DNA of 64,000 bases from Pantoea nemavictus (GTDB taxonomy: Bacteria > Pseudomonadota > Gammaproteobacteria > Enterobacterales > Enterobacteriaceae): contig NZ_JBBGZW010000002.1 in NCBI RefSeq assembly GCF_037479095.1, positions 186,001 to 250,000 on the forward strand, read 5' to 3'. Shown piece by piece: positions 51,215 through 62,102 of the stretch (positions are counted from its first letter, which is position 1; each line of letters opens with the position of its first letter). The position numbers and the translations under genes are program-made. A model generated the notes under the pieces. That model was not told the DNA's origin. It saw only the letters and a program-made list of their open reading frames with translations, and did not search any database.

Positions 51215-52822
51215 TTACTTACTGGGATTAATTATACTCACGGTGTCTGACTCAATACCCTGTTGCCTAAGCATGTAACCTAAATCATCCACTAAATCAG
51301 TAATGATATAAATGCGACTTCCAGGATAATGTATTTGTTGGCTGATTATGTGCTGGCACAACCTTTCCATTCCTCTAACCTCATTATTTACCCCGTCAGT
51401 TTCACCCGACATATCGATTAACCCGGGATAGCTCTCCCCTTCATAACTCATAACCTCATGGGCAAAGGTCCAAATTTTAACCTGCCCGCCTTCAGCGGAT
51501 AAATCCGCCTTCTCGGTAACAAAATCCTGGAATTCCCCATTAAAATAATGGCGCATGCTATGTGATATATCGATATACCATACTTCATTGAGATGGCGTT
51601 TAAAGAGGTGTGTTTGTTGTAAAAAATCTTCAAACGCCTGAGTTTCTGTCGTATCTGGTGAGACTTGGGTGAAAAGCATTTGGCGACTGTTATTCACATG
51701 ACGGTGATTATCGATGCCATCATAATTAACTACCACCACCTGTCCATGTTGCGGACAAACACCGGCAGAATATTTATTGAACACGATATCAATATGCGCA
51801 TCGGTCAATTCGATACGTTGTTTACATTCGATAATTAACGTTGAGTTTTGAGCAGTAACATTTTCATCAGTGGTAAGCACTAAGTCGGGATGAATCGCAT
51901 CATTATCTTGGTTCACATAGCGGGGTTGATAAATCAACTTGTAATCAGAATGCGGATGCGTCGCAAGCGTTGCTGTTTTTCCTAACGCCAGTGGCGAGCG
52001 GCCATCTTGCGCGGCTTTGAGCTGGAATCCGCAGCGGGATAATTGCTGACAGCTAATAGCAATTATCCAGATTTCATACACTTGCCATCTGAATTTCCAA
52101 AAGGGCAATTCAACAAATCCACTGGCAATTTGTAAGATATTTTCATGGCCGAAATGGGTTTGGACTTCAGTTAATAACTCAGCATAACCAGGATGATTTT
52201 TGACAACCTCTTCAATATGGCCATTTTTTTCATGATATCTATCGCCAATGTAACAATTATTCAACCCCTTAAAGATAGTATAATGTTCATCGCCGTAGAT
52301 TTTGTTTGCGCGTTTAAGAATTGAAAAAAGCTCTAATGCACTCCAGTCAATGTTATTATCGCTAATATCAATGGAAAGTTTATTAATAACTTCATGCCCC
52401 ATCCAATCCATCACATCATTCTTGACGCGCCGCATCTGCTCGTAATCTCCGGGCATCAAGGTTTTGAGTTGTTCAAAATGACGAAATGCTTCCATGGTAA
52501 AATCCACGTTACCACTGTCTGTTTCAACTTGCCATTGAATTAAACCTTCGCCGCTTGCTGTAAGGAAGTTAGAACGTTCACAATAATTAATAATATCGGT
52601 ATACATTTTAGATAACGGTTCTGCTACAGCAATCAAGGCGCGCAAATATGCTTCGGCAGAAACATGACGCGACTCCAATGCTGAAATGAACTCACCTTCG
52701 GGTAAATCCAACCGCTGTTTCATTTTTCGATACAGATCAAGATCGCGAGAATGTTCAGGATGGAAATCAAAATTTTGGTTTTTTAGCAAAAAGCGATGTA
52801 GCTCAGCAGCCGAAGTGATCAT
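51215..52822 (-). CDS. Unknown protein with PD-(D/E)XK-like and vWA-like motifs
   Basis: 535 residues, visibly AT-richer than its neighbours. I do not recognise a named family. Residues about 1-280 are mostly helical. A PD-(D/E)XK-type nuclease core is suggested by HPDLVL (D313) followed by STLIIECKQ (E332, K334). After it comes a von Willebrand A-like motif DISHS (D418, S420, S422), with IWTF and a later IITDL (D509) placed like MIDAS-fold strands. No signal or membrane segment is seen. A nuclease plus vWA combination is reminiscent of stand-alone defence or DNA-handling proteins, but function is unknown. Flanked by a LysR gene and an autotransporter. Confidence 0.8.
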   Translation of the reverse strand: MITSAAELHRFLLKNQNFDFHPEHSRDLDLYRKMKQRLDLPEGEFISALESRHVSAEAYLRALIAVAEPLSKMYTDIINYCERSNFLTASGEGLIQWQVETDSGNVDFTMEAFRHFEQLKTLMPGDYEQMRRVKNDVMDWMGHEVINKLSIDISDNNIDWSALELFSILKRANKIYGDEHYTIFKGLNNCYIGDRYHEKNGHIEEVVKNHPGYAELLTEVQTHFGHENILQIASGFVELPFWKFRWQVYEIWIIAISCQQLSRCGFQLKAAQDGRSPLALGKTATLATHPHSDYKLIYQPRYVNQDNDAIHPDLVLTTDENVTAQNSTLIIECKQRIELTDAHIDIVFNKYSAGVCPQHGQVVVVNYDGIDNHRHVNNSRQMLFTQVSPDTTETQAFEDFLQQTHLFKRHLNEVWYIDISHSMRHYFNGEFQDFVTEKADLSAEGGQVKIWTFAHEVMSYEGESYPGLIDMSGETDGVNNEVRGMERLCQHIISQQIHYPGSRIYIITDLVDDLGYMLRQQGIESDTVSIINPSK

Positions 52823-53098: not shown

Positions 53099-56000
53099 TC
53101 AAAATGACCACCTAACGCCCGCGTTATAGCGCCAGCCTTTGGCGCCGTTGCCGTCGATCTCTTTGCGGTAGTCCGCTTCGGCATACAACGATACATCCTT
53201 GTTTAGCGTTGCGCTGCCGCCCAGGCCGACATCCCACATCTGGCCGAATTTACCGCTGTCAAACGTTTGACTGCCTTCTGCATCCGCCGCACCAATTTTG
53301 GTTTTCGCAGTGCCGCCCCAGCCTTTGTAGTAATTGGCGCGAACATACGGTGTGTAGGCGTTCTGGCTGCCGTCTTGCCAGGTGCGATCGAGGCGCGCGC
53401 CGAGGCGGCCAATGGTTTGATCGTAATCGTTATACGACACGCGGGTGTTATCACGATCGGTGAAGCTATCCATCTTCATCTGCAGCCAGGTAATTTGCGC
53501 CTGCGGTTCGAGGCGCACGCCGTTGGCGAAGGTGAACGGATAGCCCGACTCCACCGAGGCGGTCCAGCCGTTGCCTTTCGGTGATGCCACCTCTTTCTGC
53601 CGCGCAATATCCGTCTCGCCGCGATACCAGCCCCAACTTAGCGAGCCATCGAGGTAGAACCCGCTGTCGCGCAGCCAGGTGCCGTAGAGCGAAATGGTGT
53701 CGCTATCGAAACTGGTGGAGCTGTAACCGTCCGCCGCCTGTGGACGAATGCGCGTATTACCCCGCGTATATGCCACCCCACCGCGCAGGCTTTCTTCAGC
53801 ACCATCAACCTGCAGCAGGTTGCCGCCCAGTTGTACCGCGCTGTAATCCAGGTCGAAGTCGTAACCGTAATCGGCTAAACCGCGATTACTTTGGTACTTC
53901 AGATTAGAGCCGAGATAACGAATAAACATCTCGCCGCCCACGCCTTCAGGCTCGCCTTGCTGCTGACGCAGTTCACCGAGGCGCTTATGCAAGTCGTCAG
54001 TCACCGCCAGCGAGTAGTAAGCCAGACCAACCGGCGCCGAGATATACGATGGCACCTGCGGTGTAACGGCCAGGCGCGCCGCACGCTGGCCGCTGCCCGC
54101 TTGCGGCTGGCACAGCGAGCCATCTTCACAGACGAAGGTATTGGCGAGACGATAATCCCACGCCCCCGCAGCCGAACTGCCCGGCGCGAAGCTGGCTAAG
54201 CCGTATTGCCACGGCCCGGATGCGACATAGCCATTCTTCAGCACAAAGCTCGTGGCGCTGGCGTTACCGGTTACCTGCGCCAGCGAGACGCCTTCGTTGG
54301 CAGCAATCACGCCATCGCGGTTGCTATCCAGCAGCGGGCCGCCAGCCAGTTTATCCTCAATCAAAGTGGTGCCCGTGGCGTTGCCGTTGACGCGTAACAA
54401 ATCACTTTGCGTTGCCGTCGAATTGAGTTTCAGGTTGCCGCCGGTTGATGCCAAATCGCCATCAATGGTTAAAGTATTCGCCGCTGCGTTGCCGCCGTTG
54501 GTGAGATCCAGCGTACCGGCGTTGTTTACCACCAGCGAATCGCCGGTTGCGCCCTGCAGCAGCGGATTAACATTATCACCGGCGTACAACGTACTGCCGG
54601 CATCGATATTGATGGTGCTATGCGCCAGTTTGATGTTGTCGGTCAGCGTCCATTGGGTATCGAAGAAGTTGAGCGTGCTCCAGCCCGCGCCGAGGTTGGT
54701 GCCTTTGCTGGCATCATCGCTGGCAAAGGAACCGCCGCGCGCCGACAGCTTGCTGAGGTTAAGCGTGCTGCCCGCCCCGTTTTCCGTGGTGATGTGGCGC
54801 GTATCCGCCAGGCTGACTTTTTGCACCGTCGCCTGATTCGCCGCACCGCTGCCCATCGTCAGGCTGCCGTTCAGCGTGCCGCCGGTAACGATCAGCTCAT
54901 CGCTGCCGCTGCCGGTATTCACGTCGCCGATTACCGAACCATCAAGGAGCGCGATCACATCATTGCCTGCGCCACCGGCCACCACGACCTGATCCGGGAA
55001 CGGTGCGTTGATGGTGCCTTCATTGACAAATACCGTGTTTCCGCCGCGCAAATCGATCAGCGGAGAGACGCGGCTGAGTGAGCTAATCGATCCCTGATTG
55101 ATCACCTGGCTGGCGGTGCTGGTCTTAATCGCCGAGCCGCCGTTAGCATCGCGAATGCTAATCGACCCCTGCGAAATGACTCTGCCGCTGGTATTGGCGC
55201 GAACGCCGGTGCCCTGCGTGGAAACCAGAATCGAATAGTCCTTGCCGATCACCAGATCGTTACTGGTGGTCGAGCCATCTTCATTTTCGAAGCGATAGCC
55301 GGTGCCGGTACCGCTGACGTTAATCAGCACGCGACCATTAGGATCAAATGAGGTGGCCGAACGCACGCCGTTGCCGCCTGATACCTCAAGCATCACGTTT
55401 TCCAGCGAGATGTTGGCGGTTTCAGCGCGGTTATTGAGGGCACTTCCGCTGCCTAAAGCGCCGATAATGATGTCGTTGGCTTCAACGCCCTGCGCACCGC
55501 TATCGAGCAGCAAACCGTCGGCTTTGCGCATCGCTTGTATCGTGCTCGCGCCCTGCCCGTCACCATAGATTTTTAGCCAGCCACCGTCGCCAACACGCAA
55601 CGCGGCGATGCCGTCGTCAACGCGCAGGGAGCTATCCATTGGCACGTATTGCCCGTAGCCGCTGCTGACGTCTACGCCCGTGCCCGAAGCAATATGGATG
55701 CTGCCACGGTTAATGAAATTACCGCCGTCATGCACGCGCGCGCCGGTGCTGTTGGGGCCGCGCAGATCGACTGCGCCCTGATACTGGTTGAAAATGCGCG
55801 CGCCGTCGCTGACATCAAAAGCGGTGGCATGGCGGCCATTGCCGTTGATTAAACCGGCGGCGTAGATCTCCGTTTCATTGGTACTCGCCTGTGCCGCGGT
55901 ATTGTTGCGTCCGTTAAGCGTGATGGTGTTGGTTAATACGCCGGAAGCGTTATAGGTTGCGCGCATCACCGTGGCATTCTTGCCGGTAACAAGATAATTA

Positions 56001-59000
56001 TCGGTCCCAGACACGTAGGATCCTGACTCTGACACCACAATACCGGTGGTGTTTTTGCCGCTGAGCGTAACGGTGCCGGCGGCCTGCGGGTAGAGCCACC
56101 CCTCAGTGGCGACTTCATACAGCGTCGAACCTTCAGTACTGACGTTAACGTTGCCACCATTGCTGATCAGCCGCGAACCGTGATCCTGAATCTGATAGCC
56201 CACCTGCTGTGGATGATGAAACACCACGCTACTCTGCGGGCCAAGGTTTACCTGTCCCCCCGCGCTCACCAGTCCACCGACCGTGTAATCGCCATACAGA
56301 TTCATGGTGCTGTTTTGATTGATGCGGGATAGCCGGTCATAGGCAATAAAGCCGTAGGCACCCGAGTAAATATTCAGCGTACCGGTATTGTTGATGTCAG
56401 TGGTTGTCACCTTGTCGCCGACAAACTCATAACCATCGGCATACAGCGCCACACCATTATTGGCGACGCTAATTACGCCGCTATTGGTCACCTTGCCACC
56501 GTTGGTCGCATAGATTGCCTGCGGTGCCAACCCCATTAAGCTGATATTGGCGGTATTGATCACCTGCGCATGATTACGCGCAATCAAACCACGCTGAAAT
56601 TTATCATTACCGCTTAGCGCTGCATGGTTGGTTAACAAGGTATTTTCATTAAACTGCGTATCGGGATTAACCACAGAGCCCTGCAACAAATAGCGATTAC
56701 CGTCCACTTGAGCCCAGCGGGCATCTTGACCGATAAGGTTGACCTTGGTTGCCGCATCAACGGTGGCACGTGCACCGTCGGTAATCCACAGCCCGGAAGC
56801 GTAATCACTGTTCAGATTGAAGGTCGCCCCGTGAGTGGCGATCTCGCTGCCGTCGCCAGCGGCAAATACGCCAAGGGCAAAGGGCGCATTCATGGAGAGC
56901 GTCATGCCGCGGCCATCAAAATCCGCGCCCTGCTCAAGGCGAAAAAGCGTGCCGCCGTTACTAGATGTGGCGTAGTGCCCGTTAGCCGGCAAGTTGATTT
57001 TGGCGTTGGGCCCGATGGTGTAAAAACTGATTTGTCGCTGAGCGAGAAAGTCTCCATTGCCTACGGATGAGGGCACGGCGCTGGGAGTGACGTTGACTGT
57101 GGCATTGCCTTCAGCGCGGATGCCGATGCCTGCCGTGCCGCGCAAATTAATTTTCCCGCTGACATTAGCCGTAGCGCTGCTGCCCGGCTCACCTATCACC
57201 CAAACAGCGGTATTGTTGGTGCCGCTAAAACGATCGGCATCACCACGCACGTTAATGGTGCCGCTGGAGTAAGCGCTAGCGCTGTCACCATCACGCGCGA
57301 TGACTTTGAGGCCGGTGCCGTTATCGCCATTAAGATTGATGGTGCCAGCATTGCCCACCTTACCGCCGCTGCCGGCATTAATCGCCAACATGCCAACGTT
57401 TTCCAGGGGCTGATATTGCGCTTTGCCGTTTACATCGATCACACCGTTGTTGCGGGTAACGGCGTTCGGCGCAAGTTCTACCCGCATTCCCACCGCATTT
57501 TGTACTTTGGAACCAATCACGATGCGGCCATCGTTAATCACTTTTGAATCCAGCAGCTGATAAATGCCGCTGACACCGCCACTCAAATTAACGGCGACCT
57601 CTTCGCTGCGATCATTTTTACGATTCTGCGGTGCACGGCCGATATAGATGGTGCCGTCTTTGGCATTCACGAAACTACCGTTTCCATCGCTGCTCGGCAG
57701 CACGCCCGCCGCGCCGCCAGCGCCGGAAATGTCGCTGACGCCGACATTGATATTGCCGTGGTTCACCACCCTGCTGTTGTAGGAACTGATGCCGGTACTG
57801 AAGCCCGGGCCGGGTTGCAGATTGATGACGCCTCGATTGATAAAGTGGCTACTGTAATTGGCGGTCACCGCGCTACCGGCCGCACCAACCGTGCTGCTAT
57901 CGACGCCTTTACCGTTGGCGTTATTAAGAAAACCGGTATTAATCACGCCATTGTTTATTCCGCGCGCGCCGTTGAGCAACTCCAGGCCAGAACCGGTGCT
58001 GGAGAGCTTGCCATTGATAATCGCTTTCGCGCCATTTATGGCGCGCATCACCACGCTATTACTGTTCACCACCTCCAGCGTTTTGCCGCGATTGATTTTG
58101 ACCGTCGCCTTAGGACCATCGGCGCTGAGCACCACCTGATCGAAAATCGGTAGCGCCACCTCATCGTCGAAGTTGTTGCCGCTCATGCGATAGACCACGC
58201 GTCCGTCCCGCAGCGCGTAGGCTTTGTTAAATTCTGCGTTGTAGCTGTCGGTGCTGAGATTGGCGTTGGACAGTTGATCGATCAGCCAATCGTTGTAATT
58301 GCGAAGTTCATTGAGATTGGTGACGTTGAAGGTGCTGGTGCCGCCGTCCAGCGTGTTGACGGTGAAGACGCCCGCATATTGCACCACGTTGCCCACATCA
58401 TAAGCCAGGCGATCGCCGCCGTATGGCGTGGTGCCTGCGGTGAAGGTGATGCGATTATTGGAATTCCAGTTGAGGTTGCCTTTATTGCTGGCGGTAAATA
58501 ACTGGCTTTGCTTCGCCGCCATCGACCAGCTATTCGTTGAGGAATTGGCCGCTGCGTTATGCTCGCCAATATCGATATTAAGCGTGCCATTGCTAACGGC
58601 AGCGACGCGTGCATTAATATATTGTTTGTCGTTTACATCAAAATAATCTGGCACTACGGTATCCAGACCTACTGCGGGAAGATCGACAATTTCAGACGTT
58701 TTAAACACGGAATATGTGGTGTAAGTATTTTCCTCATAATTAGGAATACCAATTAAATAGCTCTGCTGACCGATTTGCAGTCGCGCTTCGCCAATGACAT
58801 TGTCATTGATAATTCGACCAATAGTGCGCAACTCACCAATCGTCACGCTGCCCGTGCCATTCTCACCGGGCGTAAACTGCGGCAATCCACTGAGCGTTTG
58901 TGTGCTGCCATTACATAAACAGTATGCACCCACCTTATTGTCATTAATTTCAGGCGTATAGGGCTTTAATATCGCAGCCGTTGTCGGCAGCACAGGGAAC

Positions 59001-59053
59001 ATCATGCCTTGCGCAGCCACAAGGCTTAGTAACACCGGATTTAATTTAAACAC
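53099..59053 (-). CDS. Giant type V autotransporter (AidA/pertactin-like beta-helix passenger)
   Basis: 1984 residues starting at GTG (59053-59051) with GAGGA 7 nt upstream. A signal peptide (LSLVAAQGMMFPVLPTTAA) is followed by a very long passenger of repeated beta-helix turns rich in N, G, S and T (NNGTINLNGDNGTGLKV-like units), and by a C-terminal autotransporter barrel of about 280 residues ending in RYNAGVRWSF. Two cysteine pairs stand out: CLCNG near residue 45, and CEDGSLC just before the barrel region. Passenger domains of this kind mediate adhesion, autoaggregation or biofilm formation. The gene is alone, with no activating protease or partner nearby. Confidence 0.92.
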   Translation of the reverse strand: MFKLNPVLLSLVAAQGMMFPVLPTTAAILKPYTPEINDNKVGAYCLCNGSTQTLSGLPQFTPGENGTGSVTIGELRTIGRIINDNVIGEARLQIGQQSYLIGIPNYEENTYTTYSVFKTSEIVDLPAVGLDTVVPDYFDVNDKQYINARVAAVSNGTLNIDIGEHNAAANSSTNSWSMAAKQSQLFTASNKGNLNWNSNNRITFTAGTTPYGGDRLAYDVGNVVQYAGVFTVNTLDGGTSTFNVTNLNELRNYNDWLIDQLSNANLSTDSYNAEFNKAYALRDGRVVYRMSGNNFDDEVALPIFDQVVLSADGPKATVKINRGKTLEVVNSNSVVMRAINGAKAIINGKLSSTGSGLELLNGARGINNGVINTGFLNNANGKGVDSSTVGAAGSAVTANYSSHFINRGVINLQPGPGFSTGISSYNSRVVNHGNINVGVSDISGAGGAAGVLPSSDGNGSFVNAKDGTIYIGRAPQNRKNDRSEEVAVNLSGGVSGIYQLLDSKVINDGRIVIGSKVQNAVGMRVELAPNAVTRNNGVIDVNGKAQYQPLENVGMLAINAGSGGKVGNAGTINLNGDNGTGLKVIARDGDSASAYSSGTINVRGDADRFSGTNNTAVWVIGEPGSSATANVSGKINLRGTAGIGIRAEGNATVNVTPSAVPSSVGNGDFLAQRQISFYTIGPNAKINLPANGHYATSSNGGTLFRLEQGADFDGRGMTLSMNAPFALGVFAAGDGSEIATHGATFNLNSDYASGLWITDGARATVDAATKVNLIGQDARWAQVDGNRYLLQGSVVNPDTQFNENTLLTNHAALSGNDKFQRGLIARNHAQVINTANISLMGLAPQAIYATNGGKVTNSGVISVANNGVALYADGYEFVGDKVTTTDINNTGTLNIYSGAYGFIAYDRLSRINQNSTMNLYGDYTVGGLVSAGGQVNLGPQSSVVFHHPQQVGYQIQDHGSRLISNGGNVNVSTEGSTLYEVATEGWLYPQAAGTVTLSGKNTTGIVVSESGSYVSGTDNYLVTGKNATVMRATYNASGVLTNTITLNGRNNTAAQASTNETEIYAAGLINGNGRHATAFDVSDGARIFNQYQGAVDLRGPNSTGARVHDGGNFINRGSIHIASGTGVDVSSGYGQYVPMDSSLRVDDGIAALRVGDGGWLKIYGDGQGASTIQAMRKADGLLLDSGAQGVEANDIIIGALGSGSALNNRAETANISLENVMLEVSGGNGVRSATSFDPNGRVLINVSGTGTGYRFENEDGSTTSNDLVIGKDYSILVSTQGTGVRANTSGRVISQGSISIRDANGGSAIKTSTASQVINQGSISSLSRVSPLIDLRGGNTVFVNEGTINAPFPDQVVVAGGAGNDVIALLDGSVIGDVNTGSGSDELIVTGGTLNGSLTMGSGAANQATVQKVSLADTRHITTENGAGSTLNLSKLSARGGSFASDDASKGTNLGAGWSTLNFFDTQWTLTDNIKLAHSTINIDAGSTLYAGDNVNPLLQGATGDSLVVNNAGTLDLTNGGNAAANTLTIDGDLASTGGNLKLNSTATQSDLLRVNGNATGTTLIEDKLAGGPLLDSNRDGVIAANEGVSLAQVTGNASATSFVLKNGYVASGPWQYGLASFAPGSSAAGAWDYRLANTFVCEDGSLCQPQAGSGQRAARLAVTPQVPSYISAPVGLAYYSLAVTDDLHKRLGELRQQQGEPEGVGGEMFIRYLGSNLKYQSNRGLADYGYDFDLDYSAVQLGGNLLQVDGAEESLRGGVAYTRGNTRIRPQAADGYSSTSFDSDTISLYGTWLRDSGFYLDGSLSWGWYRGETDIARQKEVASPKGNGWTASVESGYPFTFANGVRLEPQAQITWLQMKMDSFTDRDNTRVSYNDYDQTIGRLGARLDRTWQDGSQNAYTPYVRANYYKGWGGTAKTKIGAADAEGSQTFDSGKFGQMWDVGLGGSATLNKDVSLYAEADYRKEIDGNGAKGWRYNAGVRWSF

Positions 59054-59353
59054 AATGTTTTCCTCAACAGAGAAAAGACAAATTGCGTACGGATGTACGC
59101 TTCAGGTTTGTTTAACTGACTGAATTATTTTGTTTCAGGTTTTTAATGTTTGAAATTGGGTGAAATGAGTATCAACGCTAGGTAGGGTTAGCGTCTAGTT
59201 TGAGTTAAGGATTTGTGAGATGGGAGAGAGGATTTAGGAATTTGGCTAACATTAGCCTAATATATATTGGACCTACAAAACTTGATTTGAAATTTCACCA
59301 TTCAAAAATCAAGTCAATCATTAGATTGTCAAAAACTAATGTTAGAACATATT
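59054..59353. other. AT-rich region upstream of the autotransporter gene
   Basis: About 300 bp of AT-rich DNA with no coding frame, RNA gene or repeat of the common family. It must contain the autotransporter promoter and marks the edge of the AT-rich block that continues to 61.3 kb. Base composition changes sharply here compared with the autotransporter gene. Confidence 0.5.
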
Positions 59354-59397
59354 AAAAAAGAAAAAACCCTCAGCCATTTAATTAATGCCTGAGGGTT
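59354..59397 (-). terminator. Rho-independent terminator of the ParA/cyclase-like unit
   Basis: On the minus strand AACCCTCAG and CTGAGGGTT form a 9-bp stem around a 15-nt AT-rich loop, followed by a T-tract (the A run at 59355-59366 on the plus strand). It starts 6 nt after the cyclase-like stop. Confidence 0.9.
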
Positions 59398-59402
59398 AAG
59401 AA

Positions 59403-60050
59403 TCAACTAAACCTTTCAGGACTGAGGGAGGTTCCAATTGCTCGGTCACAATAGTTTGCAAGCCAAATGCCCTTTTGGATAATGGATGTAGACTTACTTG
59501 CGATGCAACTTTTCACAATGCCAGAAATTTTATTAACAAACAAATCATCATGCTCCCCCTGCAAATAATTGACAAAATGCAAACCATCATATTCTTTAAC
59601 TAAAAGATCTGGAACTTGTCCATTTGGAAACAATAAATCAACCACGTCTGATGAGACCACGACACGAGGATAAATCGCCTTTTCACTCTCAACAAAATAT
59701 GCATCGATCAAAGCCGGACTGAAAATGAAGCTGTTTGAGCTATAATGTTTATTGATAACAACACCACCTCTGCAAAGAAAGCCATTTTTAATCAAATGTT
59801 TTTGATACAATGACACCGCACTCACAAAGTCGTCAAACCCTTCTTTATGGTATAATTTAGATATCACTATCGAGTCTGAAAATTGAGTGAGCTCTATCTG
59901 TTTCTTGCCAAATATCCTTTGACATTCCACATGACAATCAAAAAGTGAATCCAGCAGCTCTCCTTTATATCCACTTTCTTTTTCTTTTTCAACAATACCT
60001 TTGAAACCAAGAATATCTATGAAGGCAACGAATGAAGTAGTAATTTCCAT
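59403..60050 (-). CDS. Class III nucleotide-cyclase-like protein of unknown function
   Basis: 215 residues, AT-rich gene. The first strand FVAFIDILGFKG carries an aspartate (D12) in the position of metal site 1 of class III adenylate/guanylate cyclases (F-x-D-x-x-GF), and QFSDSIVIS supplies a second aspartate (D59) on the following hairpin. CRGGVVINK, FIFSPALIDAYFVES and AIYPRVVVS continue the cyclase-like pattern of known uncharacterised relatives. Purine-specifying and transition-state residues cannot be placed with confidence, so activity is open. Its ATG directly abuts the ParA-like stop, so the two are a unit. Confidence 0.72.
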   Translation of the reverse strand: MEITTSFVAFIDILGFKGIVEKEKESGYKGELLDSLFDCHVECQRIFGKKQIELTQFSDSIVISKLYHKEGFDDFVSAVSLYQKHLIKNGFLCRGGVVINKHYSSNSFIFSPALIDAYFVESEKAIYPRVVVSSDVVDLLFPNGQVPDLLVKEYDGLHFVNYLQGEHDDLFVNKISGIVKSCIASKSTSIIQKGIWLANYCDRAIGTSLSPERFS

Positions 60051-61121
60051 TTACTTAATTCTCTTTTCATATTCAAAAATAGTAGTGCATGCCTTTGCAA
60101 ATAACTTGCGGTAGCTTTCAATCCTTTCCGCAGCGCCAGTCCAGTTATTACCTCTCCACGGATCTCCACTTTTTGTTATTAAAGCCGTATCAGATTGATT
60201 TATATTGAAAACTGCTTTACCCACTTCTTGCATCAATGGGGCCAATTGATTGAAATCAGGGATTTCAATAACAATAGCGCTACCTTTAGAATCCCCTGCA
60301 AATTCCGGAAGATACTTATCATCACCCATTAAAGGTTTAATCTTATTGTCAATCTCTGCAGGTATTCTATCCATCCACATTTGATAACCTGGCTTTGCTA
60401 CTCCAGAATATTTTTTAAATGCTTGAACAATACAGCCTAAAAATGCAGGGCTACCATGTCTAATTGGCAATCCCATTTCATTATATGTTTTAATTGCTTG
60501 CTGGTGTTCGTTTATCCATCGACTGATAATATGACTTAATGTAGATATAGCTTGTACGTTAAAGCGATCAGGTGCAACTGGAATAAAGAAAGCATCACAT
60601 GATAAGAAAAATGATCTCGTTAGTGCTCCAGAACTAGGCCCCACATCTATAAACACATAATCATACTTTTCTTTTTCAGCTATTCTTACAAGAAAATCAC
60701 CAATTGATATGTAGGTCCTCATTAAATTAGTTCGTTGACTTAATCGTTGGACGTGAGCTTCTGCTAAATCATCCTCAATAGAAGATAGGTCTACAGAGCC
60801 TCTGATCAAGTCCAAATTCTCGCTTATCTTAGCTGTAAAAACTTTATCTAAGTCAATGAAGGCTGAATCACCCTTGATCCTCTGATTCAAAACCTCCAAA
60901 ATATCCGTACCTGGTAACTCTGCAATTTTTTTGTTTTTTTCAGACTGTGCATCGAGTTCTTTAATAGTTACCGCCATGGAAATTTCGGTTAAATTACATT
61001 GAGGATCAGCATCAACCATTAAAACCTTTTTACCTATTCCTGCAAGATAGCTGCAGATATTGAAAGTAGTGGTGGTTTTTGAAACGCCACCTTTATGATT
61101 ATACAGTGTGATAATTTTCAT
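60051..61121 (-). CDS. ParA/MinD-type ATPase (AAA_31), chromosomal, without ParB
   Basis: 356 residues from the ATG at 61121, with GAAGGA 7 nt upstream; the longer frame from 61181 lacks a ribosome site. The deviant Walker A YNHKGGVSKTTT (K10, K15), Walker A-prime VDADPQCNL (D37, D39) and Walker B-like VFIDVGPSSGALTRS are complete. The C-terminal third, with FLGCIVQAFKKYSGVAKPGYQMW, is longer than in simple plasmid ParA. No ParB, centromere repeats or replication gene is nearby. It abuts the cyclase-like gene and both are AT-rich, so they were probably acquired together. Confidence 0.88.
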   Translation of the reverse strand: MKIITLYNHKGGVSKTTTTFNICSYLAGIGKKVLMVDADPQCNLTEISMAVTIKELDAQSEKNKKIAELPGTDILEVLNQRIKGDSAFIDLDKVFTAKISENLDLIRGSVDLSSIEDDLAEAHVQRLSQRTNLMRTYISIGDFLVRIAEKEKYDYVFIDVGPSSGALTRSFFLSCDAFFIPVAPDRFNVQAISTLSHIISRWINEHQQAIKTYNEMGLPIRHGSPAFLGCIVQAFKKYSGVAKPGYQMWMDRIPAEIDNKIKPLMGDDKYLPEFAGDSKGSAIVIEIPDFNQLAPLMQEVGKAVFNINQSDTALITKSGDPWRGNNWTGAAERIESYRKLFAKACTTIFEYEKRIK

Positions 61122-61359
61122 AATAAATCCTTCTATTATAATGATTTTTTGACTTACTGGATGTTTAACTACTATTAGCACTTTGGACTATCTTAAAACC
61201 TTTAAGTAAATCCATTGCTAATAATAACTCGCATATAAAAAGTTATGCAACCGCCATGTTTATGAGTAGATTATAAATCTACTTTCAATATATCTAATTT
61301 TAAAAATCACGGTTCACTTTTACCAGATAAATATTTCAAAAACAACAACATCAGTAAAA

Positions 61360-61842
61360 TTAATTTCCTATATTAGATTGCACTTCTAAAGGCCAGGCCG
61401 CCAATCCCTTTATCTCCTTCAGCACAAACATACTCTGCATCTCTTTTATCCCTGGCAGTCTACGAATAACCGACATCGCGAAGTCGGCATACGCATCCAT
61501 ATCTGCCGCCACCACTTGCAATAAGAAATCGGCATCGCCGCCGATGCTGTAGCAGGACACCACATTATCCAGCGACATCACTTCCTGTTCGAATTTACGC
61601 GCTTCGGCTTCACTGTGGCTATCAATAGAGACGCGCACGAACACCATCACATTAAGGCCAATCTTTTTTCGATTAAGTACCGCACGATAACCCTGAATCA
61701 CTTCATCCTCTTCCAGCTTGCGCACTTTGCGCCAGGTGGGGGATGCGGAGAGGCCAATTTCGTCGGCGAGGTGTTGGTTGGTGATGCGCGCGTCCTGCTG
61801 CAACTGCTGAAGAATTTTGATATCTGTCTTGCTTAAGCTCAT
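61360..61842 (-). CDS. Lrp/AsnC-family transcriptional regulator
   Basis: 160 residues. An AsnC-type helix-turn-helix (LSKTDIKILQQLQQDARITNQHLADEIGLSASPTWRKVRKLEEDEVI, in short motifs; residues about 2-50) is followed by a RAM ligand domain (VRVSIDSHSE, CYSIGGDADFLLQVVAADMDAYADF). It is divergent from a DUF2000 gene across 260 bp containing two repeats, and such pairs recur in proteobacteria. It probably senses an amino acid and controls that gene. Confidence 0.92.
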   Translation of the reverse strand: MSLSKTDIKILQQLQQDARITNQHLADEIGLSASPTWRKVRKLEEDEVIQGYRAVLNRKKIGLNVMVFVRVSIDSHSEAEARKFEQEVMSLDNVVSCYSIGGDADFLLQVVAADMDAYADFAMSVIRRLPGIKEMQSMFVLKEIKGLAAWPLEVQSNIGN

Positions 61843-61988: not shown

Positions 61989-62038
61989 GTCGCCATGAAT
62001 GGCGACCCTACGTCGTAGGGTGCGCATTTATGCGCACC
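61989..62038. repeat. Two back-to-back palindromic repeats (GTCGCCAT and GTAGGGTGCGCAT variants)
   Basis: GTCGCCAT-GA-ATGGCGACCCTAC (61989-62011) and GTAGGGTGCGCATTTATGCG plus CACC (62015-62038) meet end to end at their CTAC/GTAG tips. They lie between the divergent Lrp and DUF2000 genes and show that two core variants share one end sequence. Confidence 0.85.
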
Positions 62039-62102
62039 AGGCAGACCAGCATTATTCGCTAAACCGCGCACCTCTAAAACCACTCAAAGTGAAGGCTGTA
62101 TC

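Follow-up and report, generated by a model that had tools for sequence, protein, structure and literature searches.

What function is served by a gene for a ParA-type ATPase that runs directly into a gene for a cyclase-like protein? ParA ATPases are known to move DNA and proteins of cell division. The question is raised by a locus of Pantoea nemavictus in the 64,000-nucleotide stretch of DNA analyzed here (the window), which is part of contig C2 of a two-contig genome. An initial annotation proposed that the two genes form an acquired signaling or defense unit. We assign a probability of roughly 0.7 to the explanation that they constitute a mobile antiviral module of the abortive-infection type, in which ParA, as sensor or switch, is combined with a cyclase-fold effector.

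Organization of the gene pair

Both genes reside on the reverse strand. According to the ORF calls, the gene for a 356-amino-acid ParA/AAA_31 deviant-Walker ATPase with a C-terminal extension (P0002; 60051–61121) has its ATG at 61121 and its stop codon at 60051–60053. The adjoining gene (59403–60050), with its ATG at 60050 and its stop at 59403, encodes a 215-amino-acid protein with a class III nucleotidyl cyclase fold (P0001), which is the proposed effector. The stop codon of one gene and the start codon of the other therefore abut, as the initial annotation had stated. On inspection of the sequence, no good ribosome-binding site is seen ahead of the second ATG, which fits translational coupling of the 215-amino-acid protein to ParA. 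A promoter scan returned 8 candidates versus 9.4 in shuffled sequences, and thus no excess.

The two-gene unit is closed by an intrinsic terminator on the same strand (59355–59402; −19.6 kcal/mol, z = −5.25) with a U-rich tail. A simple terminator scan with a loop limit of 8 did not pick up this element, whereas the fold z-score did. The shared terminator proposed earlier is present, but it falls outside the range that had been assigned to the unit (59403–61121). The GC content of the ParA gene is 0.363 and that of the 215-amino-acid gene is 0.364, compared to 0.543 for the whole window, which bears out the claim that both genes are AT-rich.

Insertion site in related genomes

The pair is located between genes for an autotransporter (53099–59053) and an Lrp-type regulator (61360–61842). 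Comparison by blastn with three related genomes (G238, G1111, and G1089) defines an acquired segment at 59250–61383, for which no strand is assigned; homology of the flanks ends at 59242–59249 and restarts at 61383–61386. In G238, a member of the same genus, the site is empty and the ends of flank homology are 136 bp apart. The same site in G1111, which belongs to the same species, holds a 1004-amino-acid UG5-nitrilase reverse transcriptase (1.9e-271) together with Drt1b (1.4e-58), and therefore a DRT system. G1089 carries AriA (9.1e-31) and AriB (1.1e-27) in a PARIS-like arrangement, and G1105 carries the PADLOC candidate PDC-S71 (4.3e-216). In Pantoea sp. SO10, where the two flanking genes are likewise annotated as autotransporter and Lrp-type regulator, the site is occupied by a DUF262 protein. 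DUF262 is linked to restriction.

Six states of the site were seen among the genomes inspected, five of which are cargo, and PADLOC models are matched by all three of the other cargoes scanned (all but DUF262). In genus scans of 30 genomes each, G238, G1111, G1089, and G1105, whose flanks lie close together, were inspected besides the window; G1091 matches on the regulator side only and is not counted, and genomes with flanks far apart or on separate contigs were left out. The site between the autotransporter and the Lrp-type regulator is a defense hotspot. The empty site and the alternative defense cargo in relatives lend further support to the proposal of an acquired defense unit. For the flank on the regulator side, the best plasmid matches are three Pantoea megaplasmids (84–87% identity over 57–97% of the flank).

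Two other features of the surroundings were observed. Past the autotransporter, a 535-amino-acid AT-rich ORF (51215–52822; about 40% GC) possibly also was acquired. At about 61989–62041 is a REP-like element of ∼50 bp, many copies of which occur here and in several other genomes of the genus.

The ParA ATPase

The larger protein has the deviant Walker A motif with its signature lysine and the fold of ParA/AAA_31 ATPases, and its best matches are 3pg5, Soj, McdA, and partition ATPases. The first of these (C. diphtheriae DIP2308) is “uncharacterized” according to its entry. This fold raises the alternative that ParA moves or segregates something, with the partner protein as its cargo or adaptor. 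No ParB gene adjoins ParA as in a ParABS system, since the neighbors are the autotransporter and Lrp-type regulator genes, and in this respect the initial annotation was accurate. Furthermore, the contig carries a different ParA gene (404 amino acids) next to a 323-amino-acid gene read as ParB. Plasmid partition was rejected on these grounds. Given also the patchy distribution and the unrelated partner enzymes described below, a positioning or partition function of any kind is highly improbable.

The initial annotation matched the pair to no system that could be named, and the defense systems listed in PADLOC-DB 2.0.0 (2023) give the same outcome for both proteins. No model in that database matches the 215-amino-acid protein, and the window ParA yields three weak partial matches of at most 20.6 bits. 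For three related ParA proteins, scores are no higher than 35.4 bits and cover the Walker A stretch. Among 5426 E. coli genomes, the only kin at the DNA level is a 145-bp match to ParA in four genomes, and kinship by DNA in that species was therefore rejected.

A ParA/AAA_31 ATPase encoded by a single gene of Gifsy prophages, GiPD474, confers phage resistance (PMC12724215). As characterized in the available part of that report, GiPD474 resembles the window protein in being a mobile ParA-like ATPase of similar length; it resides in prophage immunity regions and restricts several phages (PMC12724215). By its description in the same part of that report (PMC12724215), GiPD474 is a single gene for which no effector partner is mentioned, whereas ParA is coupled to a partner here. 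Its Walker A motif is GGVGKT, versus GGVSKT in the window protein.

The 215-amino-acid protein

The partner protein adopts the fold of a class III nucleotidyl cyclase catalytic domain, with moderate Foldseek TM-scores against cyclases (0.42–0.53 by query length). Residues D12 and D59 align with the two metal-binding aspartates of class III cyclases and are invariant in all 115 aligned sequences, comprising the window protein and 114 of the 141 homologs found. Both the fold and the metal motifs had been anticipated by the initial annotation. Searches of the sequence against PDB chains gave nothing significant, and the top profile match was an adenylate cyclase with an E value of 0.35.

Class III cyclases use an asparagine and an arginine as transition-state, catalytic residues. 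Both are absent from the window protein, which has I115 and F119 at the corresponding positions. Throughout the first 35 alignment rows, residue 115 is isoleucine or valine, and it is asparagine in 17 of 115 sequences overall; arginine is found at position 119 in 4 of these 35 rows and in 10 of 115 overall. Likewise, the residues by which class III enzymes select purines are not conserved in the alignment of the cyclase-like family, as judged against a reference profile built from those 11 of 20 fetched loci that passed a motif filter. An ordinary adenylyl or guanylyl cyclase was rejected because neither the substrate-selecting nor the transition-state residues are kept. A cyclase fold that lacks the usual Asn/Arg pair raises the question of which reaction it performs.

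These features bear on the comparison with Pycsar that was made earlier. Pycsar systems, in which a class III-like cyclase is combined with an effector, share with this pair the defense setting and the cyclase fold, and the comparison fits in the fold alone. However, the Pycsar partner is a cNMP-binding effector, whereas here it is a ParA ATPase and the canonical Asn/Arg pair is not conserved. No gene for a cyclic-nucleotide-sensing effector adjoins the cyclase-like gene, which is coupled to ParA only. The class III fold and the two metal aspartates could still permit Pycsar- or CBASS-like signaling, wherein the protein makes a nucleotide messenger for a receptor encoded elsewhere. The replacement of the Asn/Arg pair, the lack of a coupled receptor gene in the window pair, and the occurrence of effector-family enzymes in the same slot of other clades make this scenario improbable.

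The cyclase-like gene has no match among 50,697 phage records. In plasmids, 33 records carry genes that are 25–35% identical, and one of these loci was checked for ParA. At two further loci (L019 and L039), two genes of the cyclase-like family are found near each other on the same strand, without ParA.

Conservation and distribution of the pair

The adjacent ParA and cyclase-like genes are conserved in Gammaproteobacteria, Betaproteobacteria, Alphaproteobacteria, Desulfobotulus, and Bacillota. ParA is directly upstream in 12 of the 13 best cyclase-like relatives (E value of 1e-35 or better), consistent with the pairing predicted by the initial annotation, and the locus of the remaining one (L012) opens inside an incomplete ParA gene where the contig ends. 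A wider set of 102 cyclase-like loci was assembled from the best 80 of 192 confirmed relatives plus 22 loci, drawn from public genomes and viral contigs. In this set, 15 loci are linked to ParA, 85 are not, and 2 are at an edge. The hypothesis that the entire cyclase-like family has one constant partner was rejected, since ParA does not adjoin 85 of the 102 loci. Linkage is nonetheless clustered on a quick LG+G4 tree of 99 different cyclase-like proteins, which likewise gave long-branch warnings, requiring 3 changes versus 13.3 when shuffled. Among the neighbors of 87 cyclase-like loci without a strong ParA match, the largest cluster comprises four proteins.

The pair is rare and patchy. At an E value of 1e-40, the window's own genome is the only one of 394 in the order to contain this ParA, as do 3 of 398 genomes in the phylum, this one included. 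Such patchiness also argues against a partition function. Within the class, a profile of the cyclase-like protein matches 11 of 369 genomes and a broader ParA profile matches 20 of 369, the window's own genome included in both counts, and several ParA genes of the latter group precede unrelated genes.

No defense enrichment was shown around other pairs of the cyclase type, based on 32 flanking proteins that were hand-chosen from 87 complete ORFs, with at most two per family in the 25 families displayed of 112. The families with up to two of these proteins are type I specificity subunits and mad5. At one locus (L011:205-753), an ORF that reads as HEPN-like is upstream of the ParA and cyclase-like genes.

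ParA ATPases with alternative partners

To define the partners of this ParA family, 163 unique full-length proteins were collected, and 158 remained after exclusion of 5 located at the ends of contigs. Of these 158, 84 (the window protein included) have a gene for one of four partner types immediately downstream. The partners are 24 SIR2, 23 HEPN, 19 RelA/SpoT, and 18 cyclase-like proteins, while 19 ParA genes precede unrelated ORFs and 55 have none; these shares are not natural frequencies, because the loci were retrieved by queries for ParA, for the cyclase-like protein, and for partner-linked ParA, with over-sampling of the cyclase type. “None” denotes that no same-strand ORF of at least 100 amino acids starts within −110 to +150 bp of ParA. 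In 72 of the 84 pairs, the partner gene starts within −8 to +16 bp of the end of ParA. The existence of ParA proteins with no partner or with an unrelated ORF suggests that ParA can also serve independent roles.

Partner groups are BLAST components at 1e-4, and four pairs (L113, L254, L270, and L401) are counted among the 84 and lie outside the Pfam, motif, and distance analyses. Among the 63 noncyclase partners scanned, Pfam matches are to SIR2_2 (24), HEPN_RiboL-PSP (21), and RelA_SpoT (17), for groups of 24, 22, and 17 members. The R-x4-H motif of HEPN RNases is present in 22 of 22 HEPN partners and G[AS]G[AVI]S in 22 of 24 SIR2 partners, whereas only 10 of 17 RelA/SpoT partners carry the motif pattern searched. 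Three SIR2 partners tested have ThsA of Thoeris as their best PADLOC model and also match Dsr1/2 and LmuA. However, the SIR2 partners are only 282–312 amino acids long and coupled to ParA, whereas ThsA and DSR proteins are larger.

Distinct partners are carried by distinct ParA clades. In quick LG+G4 trees that gave long-branch warnings, the SIR2 type and the cyclase-like type are each separated from the rest by a single branch (support 100), and the HEPN and RelA/SpoT types require 2 and 3 changes, respectively, when compared with all other rows. With the four partner types alone, 3 changes suffice, which is the minimum possible. Distances among ParA proteins correlate with those among partners (SIR2, 0.94; HEPN, 0.88; cyclase-like, 0.93; RelA/SpoT, 0.87; 80 pairs), and in none of 2000 Mantel permutations for each type was the observed value reached. 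These correlations indicate a shared history of ParA and partner.

Many members of the family are mobile. SIR2-partnered ParA genes are found on plasmids of Salmonella and Vibrio ponticus, and HEPN-partnered genes on a Burkholderia glumae plasmid and in phage Pf1. A scan of viral contigs gave 51 loci by alignment to ParA of the window type; downstream of ParA are 4 cyclase-like, 4 HEPN, 6 RelA/SpoT, and 14 SIR2 genes, as judged by eye and with near-copies included. In Pf1 (AY324828.1, L173:4019-4546), a HEPN-group gene that is unannotated in the record overlaps a ParA-like ORF, and the start of its product is the same as that of the HEPN partner at locus L142. Relatives that lack such a partner occur on a Vibrio campbellii plasmid, beside type I restriction genes, and on Pantoea plasmids, in one case close to an Abi gene. 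Another, in E. coli M10 (L005:6012-7037), adjoins an integrase at tRNA-Sec in a satellite-like element that has satellite-type genes (polarity suppression and ogr/Delta-like).

Some of these settings could reflect control of lysogeny or superinfection by prophages, with any defensive effect being incidental. A stand-alone relative is one gene from the c2 repressor in the P22-like phage ST160, ORFs that read as repressor-like precede ParA at two loci (L130 and L133), and the Pf1 copy is located near att. Because other copies are on plasmids or, as in the window, have no adjoining phage genes, this explanation appears quite unlikely.

A different concern is that the pair might be a toxin–antitoxin-like addiction module, with ParA as neutralizer and the enzyme as toxin, that stabilizes a mobile element rather than fighting phage. 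Tight coupling, codivergence of ParA and partner, and the presence of many members on plasmids and in viral contigs would all be expected, and the three partner families named by Pfam include known toxins. In contrast, a 356-amino-acid ATPase is an unusual antitoxin, partnerless ParA members exist, and the window pair sits singly where relatives have defense systems. We therefore consider an addiction module to be rather unlikely.

Proposed function

The module is real, conserved, and mobile, and it is very probably defensive. In the antiviral mechanism that we favor, the conserved component is the ParA-like ATPase, acting as sensor or switch. It would bind ATP, probably dimerize and/or assemble on DNA, and either keep its partner inactive or activate it upon phage detection. 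The SIR2, HEPN, and RelA/SpoT families include cell-stopping effectors of phage defense or toxin systems. Because the cyclase-fold protein is encoded at the position of these enzymes, we infer that it is an effector and that ParA is an ATP-dependent sensor or switch. Once activated, the protein may act on nucleotides through its two-metal site and stop the cell; candidate reactions are noncanonical cyclization, nucleotidyl transfer, and NTP consumption. In other family members, a SIR2-type NADase, a HEPN RNase, or a RelA/SpoT-type synthetase would fill the effector slot. We know of no phage experiment on any paired ParA member.

The pair looks like one subtype of a seemingly unrecognized family in which ParA is combined with interchangeable effectors. 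No description of the pairing was recognized in the literature searched, which lay outside most subscription papers and bioRxiv, and neither ParA nor cyclase occurs as a word in the main text of PMC9122126 or PMC9519451. Avs and PARIS likewise combine an NTP-switched sensor with several kinds of toxic effector. Their switch is a STAND or ABC protein, whereas here it is a ParA/MinD-type ATPase and the effector is encoded by a separate gene. Modular NTPase-plus-effector defense by Avs also is discussed in the available part of PMC12724215.

We would give even odds to a broader proposal: that this is a new modular class of immunity, present even in Pf1, with a ParA/MinD-type switch and at least four interchangeable effector classes, among them a cyclase-superfamily enzyme that is a direct toxic effector rather than a second-messenger maker. 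If true, ParA ATPases also have an immune switching role, and readouts provided by the partner genes (NAD loss, RNA cleavage, and alarmone or tRNA modification) could be used to trace the ParA trigger. The same scheme would provide a label for the unannotated Pf1 gene and, if GiPD474 is related, a framework for this stand-alone resistance gene.

Two variant arrangements were observed. At four loci (L201–L203 and L179), a DNA-methyltransferase gene directly upstream of ParA and SIR2 creates a three-gene variant; the methyltransferase is annotated in L179 and assigned by reading in L201–L203. At L207:4478, a ParA relative is followed at −4 bp by a 771-amino-acid ORF of another kind, a singleton that possibly represents a further partner type.
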